A DNA stretch of 64,000 bases, taken from Thiorhodospira sibirica ATCC 700588. GTDB lineage: Bacteria; Pseudomonadota; Gammaproteobacteria; Ectothiorhodospirales; Ectothiorhodospiraceae. The notes under the pieces were generated by a model. It was not told the DNA's origin. It saw only the letters and a list, made by a program, of their open reading frames with translations, and did no database searches. The DNA is taken from positions 2,783,828-2,847,827 of the forward strand of contig NZ_MU255056.1 of the NCBI RefSeq assembly GCF_000227725.2, in the 5' to 3' direction. This document shows positions 30,621 to 32,726 of the stretch, in pieces. Both the position numbers and the translations under genes were made by a program. Position 1 is the stretch's first letter. Each line of letters opens with the position of its first letter.

Positions 30621-30937
30621 TTATTTGCACAATGAAGACAAATTTAATATTTTAATAAAATCTAAAATATCACGGAATAATTTGTCATTTTGATCTTCTT
30701 TTGTTTTCTTTATCAAAAAATATTCATGCCAGCCGTGATCCAATTCTTCGTCAAATTTTTCAAAATATAAAGTTGGTAATCCAACTTCTTATTCAACAAA
30801 AAATTCACCATCTATAAGTGAATTTTTTATATAAATATCTAATTCAGAAATTTCAATATTCATTTTTTTTTTGAAAAAATCACATCACCATATTTTTTAT
30901 TGTTTCCTGTATCTCTATAAAGGTACTCTAATAACAT
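30621..30937 (-). pseudogene. Third gene of the R-M island, small protein, broken
   Basis: The minus strand from the ATG at 30937 reads MLLEYLYRDTGNNKKYGDVIF. It then runs into a stretch of ten A where one base appears to be missing. In the shifted frame it continues with LIDGEFFVE, a TAA at 30789-30791, then EVGLPTLYFEKFDEELDHGWHEY and a TAA at 30621-30623. These pieces look like one protein of about 105 residues carrying one frameshift and one nonsense codon. I do not know its function; it trails the HNH gene and is as AT-rich. Confidence 0.6.
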
Positions 30938-30958: not shown

Positions 30959-31732
30959 TTAACCTTTGAATATATTTTCTCTGTGGTAAGAAAGAAATTC
31001 TTTATGAGGGGTAAATTTTTCAGGAAAAATAATTTATTTTTTTTCATAACTCTTAAGCGCAATTTGAAAAAAATAATCATCTTCAGAAATTTGTGTGTTT
31101 GAAATCCGTAGTGTCATATCTTCATTTATTTTAATAATACCAAGATCGAAAGCTTTGTCGTGCAGCATAGATAATGACAGCCCATTTCTTGGATTTAATC
31201 TATTCGTTGGGTCTTACCTCCATGGAATAATGTGACTCGCAACTAATAATTTTTGAACAGCAAGCCCTGTTATACAGCATTTATAATTATAAGCGCTAAG
31301 CGCCGATTGACGAAAAAAGCTCTGACCAATTCGTGCTTTTGTTTTAATCTTTTTATCCATTACAGTATAATCTTCTTTTTCCAAATATTCGGATTCTATT
31401 TTAGCAGAGTCTTCCTTTTTTTGTATAATTATATCTATTGTCATCTCTAACTAAAGTGCAAAGATTTCCCAATCATTTTGCATTTCTTTCAACATTTTTT
31501 TGTCGGCAAAAGATGCACCAGAAAGACCTTTTCGACCAGTAGATGTTATTGCAGGATCGAGGCTTGAAATATTTGTTAACTTCATAGCTAATGCTGAAGG
31601 CGTTTTCCAGATCTGCTCAGCATGCTTAATAATTTCTGGATTTTTTGAGTGCAATTTTCCAAAAGGCATTTGGCAATAAATTCCAAACGCAACCAATAAC
31701 TCCTGTCGAGTCCATCCTTTATTGCTAGGCAT
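30959..31732 (-). pseudogene. HNH restriction endonuclease with three in-frame UAR codons
   Basis: One continuous frame of 257 codons, without any indel, resembles HNH-type restriction enzymes. The N-terminus is WTRQELLVAFGIYCQMPFGKLHSKNPEI. The central part holds YNYKCCITGL and ASHIIPW, followed by RLNPRNGLSLSMLHDKAFD, which carries the H-N-H residues. The end reads FPEKFTPHKEFLSYHRENIF. The frame is interrupted by TAG at 31451-31453 (codon 94), TAA at 31214-31216 (codon 173) and TAA at 31034-31036 (codon 233). The first and third sit where glutamine would fit, so each could be a CAR-to-TAR transition. Its start overlaps the stop of the methyltransferase gene by eight bases. Almost certainly inactive. 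Confidence 0.78.
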
Positions 31733-32252
31733 AAATAACTCTCTTATTATTCAAATTCCATAGTTCGACTAGATGTGTAACCATTTTTTCTGCAACTAAA
31801 TTAATAAGAAGCACTATAACAGTATCTCCAAATAAGTTGATAGACTTTTGTGTATCACTGACCGAAATTACATCTTCAGCTGGATACGGCACAATGTCAC
31901 CAATGAAGAGGGGATTGTCGCTGTAGTTCTCAAGATGGGTCTTTTTCGAGAAGTCATTCCATTCACTGGTAAATACGCATTTGCCGCCGTGGGCCTCAAA
32001 GCCCATACGGATGCCGCCAATGCCTGCGAATAGATCAATGAACCTGAAGCTGTTGCCACCTTCCGTTGTGTTGGCTGCTGGTTGTTGCAGGAGGTCGCGC
32101 AACGCGGGTTCAAGCATTGCCGGACATGGCGTTTCGCCCTTTTCCCAACTCCTCACGGTCTTGATGTCCTTGCCAACCTGCGTGGCAATTTCGCGCTGCG
32201 TGAATCTATTACGAGCCTGCTTAAGCAGCCCAAACGGTTGGGTATGAGTCAT
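31725..32252 (-). pseudogene. C5-cytosine DNA methyltransferase with internal deletion
   Basis: The 175-residue open frame joins two ends of a cytosine-5 methyltransferase. Residues 1-60 form a helix-turn-helix (FTQREIATQVGKDIKTVRSWEKGE) as in self-regulated methylases. Residues 69-128 carry SAM motif I (FIDLFAGIGGIRMGFEAHGG) and the following region to PYPAEDV. Near residue 128 (about 31868) the sequence jumps to a motif X-like end (LFGDTVIVLLINLVAEKM). Motif IV with the catalytic PCQ cysteine, motifs VI and VIII, and the target-recognition domain are gone. It cannot methylate DNA. The ATG at 32252 has GGGAG about nine bases upstream, and the helix-turn-helix could still bind DNA. Confidence 0.82.
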
Positions 32253-32351: not shown

Positions 32352-32726
32352 GTGAAAAACGTACTCAGTCTTGGCATCCTGCTGCTTGTCTTGGCATTCT
32401 CCACACATAGCATGGCCTCCGAAGAGCGTGCGCAACACTTCAAGGGCAAGCCCTCCGAAACCCTGGAGCAGGCTTTGGAAAATTTTAGCAGTGGCAATCA
32501 GGAATTGGCTAAATTGCTGCAAGGAACGCTGGATAATGCCAAAATCACGCAAATTCACGAGTTGACCTACACCCTGGAAAATGCGCTGGAAATGCTCAAT
32601 GAGCAGATGCAGGCGCTGGCCGAAACCCTCGAAGAGCTGCATGTCGCCTCGGAGCATTACGATCCCGCCAAGGTATCCAGCAAGGGTCAGGAATATTTAT
32701 CTGTGGCGCAACAGATTGTAAAATAA
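32352..32726 (+). CDS. Periplasmic DUF6746-family protein
   Basis: A 124-residue protein with a Sec signal peptide (MKNVLSLGILLLVLAFSTHSMA, cut likely after SMA). The mature part is helical, with HFKGKPSETLEQALENFSSG and IHELTYTLENALEMLNEQM, ending VSSKGQEYLSVAQQIVK. These blocks match the family I know as DUF6746, whose function is unknown. It stands alone, 60 bases ahead of ntrB, and marks the return to normal chromosomal composition after the R-M island. Confidence 0.75.
   Translation: MKNVLSLGILLLVLAFSTHSMASEERAQHFKGKPSETLEQALENFSSGNQELAKLLQGTLDNAKITQIHELTYTLENALEMLNEQMQALAETLEELHVASEHYDPAKVSSKGQEYLSVAQQIVK

Follow-up and report, generated by a model that had tools for sequence, protein, structure and literature searches.

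An AT-rich HNH endonuclease pseudogene with three in-frame UAR stops in Thiorhodospira sibirica ATCC 700588, probably a product of ordinary restriction-modification cassette decay

Organization of the locus

The locus lies in a 64,000-nucleotide stretch (hereafter the window) of the genome of Thiorhodospira sibirica ATCC 700588 (NCBI RefSeq assembly GCF_000227725.2, contig NZ_MU255056.1, positions 2,783,828 to 2,847,827 of the forward strand). Three genes follow each other on the minus strand, namely an HTH-C5 cytosine methyltransferase, an HNH endonuclease and a small companion gene, and the first two overlap in different frames (Table 1). The GC content is 33% in the HNH frame and 23% in the small gene, compared with about 55-63% across most of the window. 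This foreign-looking, AT-rich island is a restriction cassette that probably came from an AT-rich donor. A search for direct repeats flanking the island yielded no convincing pair. DNA matches to the island region were found in 14 of 96 related genomes (counting the window's own, which is the sole member of its genus in this comparison); they covered a small plus-strand gene (32352-32726), the motif I region of the methyltransferase and pieces of the HNH gene, and they did not show an empty site in any of these genomes.

Table 1. Features of the cassette (positions in the window; the limits of the companion gene are approximate)
Feature	Position	Strand	Evidence or remark
HTH and C5-cytosine DNA methyltransferase remnant	31725..32252	-	Pfam DNA_methylase positions 1-50 of 324 only; alignment to L025, L026, L028 and L029
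Methyltransferase deletion junction	31868..31869	-	GC 52% (GC3 59%) on the N side; 31% (GC3 26%) on the C side
HNH restriction endonuclease pseudogene, single frame with three in-frame UAR stops	30959..31732	-	PADLOC PDLC04132 HNH, E 4e-113; Pfam HNH_2
First in-frame stop, TAG, codon 94	31451..31453	-	Homologue column Glu 70/87, Ala 6, Gln 5
Second in-frame stop, TAA, codon 173, HNH core	31214..31216	-	Variable column: Lys 28, Gln 11, Glu 10 of 87
Third in-frame stop, TAA, codon 233	31034..31036	-	Variable column: Pro 15, Lys 12, Ser 10, Gln 10 of 87
Small companion protein pseudogene, frameshift and one TAA	30621..30943	-	18/80 loci (best 80 of 558); alignment
A10 tract on the coding strand (T-run 30863-30872 on the plus strand)	30863..30872	-	Small gene changes frame at or near the tract

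The HNH endonuclease frame

A preliminary description, made from the sequence alone, had reported an HNH frame that is intact except for TAG, TAA and TAA. These three codons were found as described, the frame closes with a terminal TAA (30961-30959), and neither an internal TGA nor a frameshift was detected between its first and last positions. Dinucleotide-preserving shuffles of the same DNA contained 18.1 stops on average, and none of 5,000 had three or fewer, so the frame is a genuine coding frame. When read through, it aligns with its homologues over the full length without a change of frame and scores 36.7 bits against Pfam HNH_2 (cut-off 21). The match to PADLOC PDLC04132 is nearly full-length and includes the conserved HNH core; a second type II restriction enzyme model, PDLC03546, was matched with an E-value of 6e-35. 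The protein is therefore akin to restriction enzymes, but its three in-frame stops make it a pseudogene of the family and not a working member. Among solved structures, the HNH endonuclease 6yex, which we take to be TagI, resembles the C-terminal HNH part (profile positions 109-253, E 1e-19) and leaves the N-terminal part unmatched; that part is matched weakly by two designed proteins (E 0.001-0.002).

Compared with its homologues, the frame deviates at three of the 51 columns that are conserved at 95% or more, whereas the 12 closest homologue rows (11 distinct) deviate at none or one. Two of these three positions show no variation in 87/87 relatives (the best 80 of 558 plus eight others, deduplicated), which is a further difference from an intact PDLC04132 protein. 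These departures at conserved columns point to relaxed selection. The HNH core residues are mostly retained, and the decay would therefore be either recent or slow.

Intact and broken relatives

Uninterrupted HNH copies occur in two genomes of the same family, with 56 and 57% identity. A scan of named genomes gave 558 HNH relatives, of which the best 80 were retained under a ranking that favours unbroken copies. Within these best 80 of 558, the closest relative is 62% identical, and a single uninterrupted open reading frame (ORF) under translation table 11 covers at least 85% of the query in 79/80 loci. The exception, L127, covers only query residues 27 to 211. In a sample of the class, relatives were found in 9/369 genomes, the window's own included. 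Two side observations concern the family at large: seven of the 80 loci (best 80 of 558) have an HNH ORF of more than 500 amino acids, and at L032 (8502-9277) the relative lies in two overlapping frames, broken near residue 62, which suggests a frameshifted copy.

The methyltransferase remnant

The C5 gene directly upstream of the HNH frame retains its N-terminal 128 residues or so, joined in frame to the last 45 or so. In comparison with L025, approximately 239 internal residues are gone, among them the methyltransferase motif blocks PCQ, ENV and QHRER, which the relatives retain; the lost middle includes the catalytic block. In blastp against L025, the remnant matched residues 12-141 with an E-value of 5e-36 and residues 381-415 weakly (E 0.004). 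The short C-terminal piece aligns through VSDTQ and beyond in all four relatives used. This large internal deletion was not mentioned in the preliminary description.

Base composition differs between the two sides of the junction, which gives the impression that two different methyltransferase genes each contributed a part, with the seam near 31868/31869. The fall in GC within the remnant is gradual and extends over roughly 31780-31960.

Pairs and fusions of an HTH-C5 methyltransferase with an HNH nuclease are known in the same order as in the window, the methyltransferase preceding the nuclease. At L028 and L029 both activities reside in one ORF, whereas the window has two overlapping genes, the first without its middle. 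With two C5 methyltransferases as queries, a relative was found close upstream of the HNH gene in 18/80 loci (best 80 of 558), or in 17/74 when only loci with at least 1,300 bases upstream are considered (same best 80 of 558). The HNH family may often work without an adjacent C5 methyltransferase partner.

Elsewhere in the T. sibirica genome (L025, 2732-6270) a second HTH-C5 methyltransferase is located near an EcoRII-C nuclease (Pfam PF09019, E 2e-68), and a short frame on the other side of this methyltransferase resembles the N-terminus of that nuclease by eye. At the locus of the closest HNH homologue (L078, 197-4011), the match to methyltransferase residues 1-35 is separated from the remainder, lying some 2.5 kb further upstream, and LCQ stands in place of the PCQ block; that gene also looks broken, while the HNH gene is open.

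The small companion gene

The gene downstream of the HNH frame had been described as interrupted by a TAA in the same way. The TAA is present, yet the gene is also frameshifted at or near an A10 tract, its opening segment (about 30946-30863) being out of frame with the remainder. Homologue matches run in frame -3 from about 30949 to 30863, and in frame -2 from 30896 or further along. The companion ORFs of the five best-scoring relatives are 106-110 amino acids long. Using tblastn (E up to 0.05), a companion was found just downstream of the HNH gene at each of the loci counted in Table 1; 13 of these 18 homologues match both parts of the window's copy and five match the second part only. In the column of the TAA, Glu occurs in 14/18 relatives (2/6 of the best-scoring) and Gln in 0/18. 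The companion of the HNH family is a conserved small protein with YLYRDAGN near its start (18 of the loci L078-L157). None of the four companion copies scanned matched a Pfam family over its cut-off, the window copy had no match in NCBIfam, and no relatives were found in plasmids at an E-value of 0.01. In the class sample the companion was found in 4/369 genomes; one of these is the window's own, and the remaining matches are weak (E 3e-4 to 7e-4).

Residues opposite the stops

Residues in the stop columns were counted in the best 80 of 558 relatives plus eight others, a set whose ranking favours unbroken copies. L083, identical in sequence to L023, was removed for the counts over 87 homologues and retained in the counts over 88 rows. 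L031 and L032 were part of the initial alignment and are absent from both counts, the more distant L017 and L018 were omitted throughout, and L127 was retained in the alignment although its best ORF covers less than 85% of the query.

According to the preliminary description, at least two of the stops sit where glutamine fits, and an alignment with intact homologues was proposed as a check. This alignment does not bear the statement out: Gln accounts for 5, 11 and 10 of the 87 homologues at the three HNH columns and is the commonest residue at none, that place being taken by Glu, Lys and Pro, respectively. Among the 20 closest homologues, the first column holds Glu in 13 and Ala in five, and Gln occurs 0, 1 and 2 times at the three columns. 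Both relatives from the same family carry Gln at the third site. From the alignment, Gln at the variable second and third columns would be possible but is not indicated. A uniform reading of UAR as Gln is accordingly weakened by the column counts. A reading as Glu suits the first HNH stop and, across the 18 relatives though in just 2/6 of the best-scoring, that of the small gene; at the second and third HNH columns Glu occurs in 10/87 and 3/88.

As a control, three Gln positions were drawn at random from the window, and the fit of Gln was as poor or worse in 55% of draws; the corresponding values for other meanings were 53% for Lys and 14% for Glu. Taken alone, the three columns therefore do not speak statistically against a single meaning of UAR, whether Gln, Lys or Glu. 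The commonest residue changes from one HNH column to the next and is again Glu in the small gene.

The absence of UGA had been regarded as worthy of note. Of the one-step nonsense changes available to the codons of the HNH gene, 24-28% yield TGA, so the probability of no TGA is 0.37-0.44 for three stops, and 0.27-0.34 for four (nine mutation weightings). A missing UGA is thus to be expected, and the AT-rich codons of the gene account for UAR outnumbering UGA. The preliminary description had attributed the stops to independent C-to-T changes in a dying gene. The dying gene stands; C-to-T changes are not needed to explain the missing UGA, and an origin of this kind is doubtful at the first HNH stop if nowhere else, since that stop lies in a column dominated by Glu.

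Genetic code of the resident genome

The genome of T. sibirica has a gene for release factor 1 (prfA) that scores over the curated cut-off and has no internal stop. RF00005 detected 43 tRNAs, and ARAGORN reads a tRNA at 43/43 of these places. The search for UAR-reading tRNAs that had been proposed earlier found none: the anticodons CTA, TTA and TCA are absent from the 43 tRNA places, in a list that is probably incomplete since it includes neither tRNA-Ile (GAT) nor tRNA-Ala (TGC) (the assembly is 98% complete). The tRNA evidence against a reading of UAR by the resident genome is strong, not absolute. Of 39 long ORFs in the window (picked mechanically, without overlaps and with a minimum length of 200 amino acids, and not checked individually as genes), 15 terminate in TGA, 13 in TAG and 11 in TAA, i.e., 24/39 in UAR.

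Interpretation

The locus is, with high confidence, an acquired type II restriction-modification cassette that is decaying as a set of pseudogenes by ordinary processes and with no altered code. Because small indels are common in bacterial pseudogenes, three nonsense codons without a frameshift in 771 bases are a little unusual. The absence of indels stressed in the preliminary description, however, is confined to the HNH frame. The cassette as a whole combines nonsense changes, a frameshift in the small gene and the methyltransferase deletion, which is the mixture expected of ordinary decay.

We suggest that the methyltransferase, the endonuclease and the companion were probably acquired together from an AT-rich source and are now non-functional. 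When intact, the cassette would have acted as an ordinary restriction-modification system. Once the nuclease had been inactivated, methylation would no longer have been needed and all three genes would have been free to decay, and anything still translated would be no more than short pieces without activity. The nuclease should have lost its activity before the methyltransferase was lost or at the same time, unless the sites had protection from another methyltransferase; the second C5 methyltransferase of the genome, near the EcoRII-C nuclease, is a candidate for such a protector.

Decay of restriction-modification loci is on record in Mycoplasma agalactiae, where indels in poly(A) tracts or repeats have inactivated such genes, with premature stops (PMC9465063). 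The systems and the host differ from those considered here: in M. agalactiae, the insertion sits in a poly(A) stretch and disrupts the gene for a type I nuclease subunit.

It is very unlikely that sequencing or assembly errors created the stops and that the living strain carries an intact HNH gene, although an assembly error at an individual site is conceivable. Homopolymer tracts are present and could favour such errors, but three separate stops in a 2.9 Mb contig, together with the departures at invariant columns and the deletion of about 239 residues in the neighbouring gene, are atypical of random error. Moreover, unless some other enzyme gave protection, an HNH nuclease still active in the absence of its partner methyltransferase would be expected to be harmful to the cell.

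The preliminary description had also offered, as its less favoured alternative, a donor in which UAR encodes an amino acid. In such a donor, with Gln, Glu or Lys as the meaning, the frame would be an intact gene. We consider this exceedingly improbable, although the HNH frame is interrupted by UAR only and the random draws are compatible with any of the three residues. An intact gene of such a donor would be expected among intact neighbours, but the small gene has changed frame and the methyltransferase has lost its catalytic middle. The commonest residue is not constant between the stop columns, and the relatives are uninterrupted under the standard table in 79/80 cases (best 80 of 558). The resident genome, for its part, encodes release factor 1, shows no UAR-reading anticodon among the 43 tRNAs found and uses UAR to end most of the long ORFs in the window. 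As stated in a 2021 paper, every code change then known in bacteria reassigns UGA (PMC8629427); a change of TAG to Gln is reported for phages (PMC9523058). A modified version, in which the AT-rich part of the cassette came from a UAR-reading element, with Glu the best meaning for the first HNH stop and the small-gene stop, and later decayed further, has scarcely any more to recommend it; the reading as Glu is rejected mainly because the same cassette carries a frame change and a deletion.

It is hardly credible that the stops delimit several short genes that each function, as in a split endonuclease: an ATG-started frame of 76 amino acids does follow the first stop (31444..31214), but the HNH_2 domain is itself divided by the second stop, its two halves match HNH_2 positions 1-20 and 40-65 of 66 separately and each below the cut-off, one ORF covers the protein in 79/80 relatives (best 80 of 558), and the breaks in L127 and L032 do not coincide with the stops of the window.

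With ordinary decay of an acquired cassette as the preferred reading, a false lead for a recoded gene is removed: no special code has to be invoked for a frame in AT-rich DNA whose only interruptions are a few UAR codons. The companion protein, found in 18/80 loci (best 80 of 558), provides a modest lead on the intact systems.
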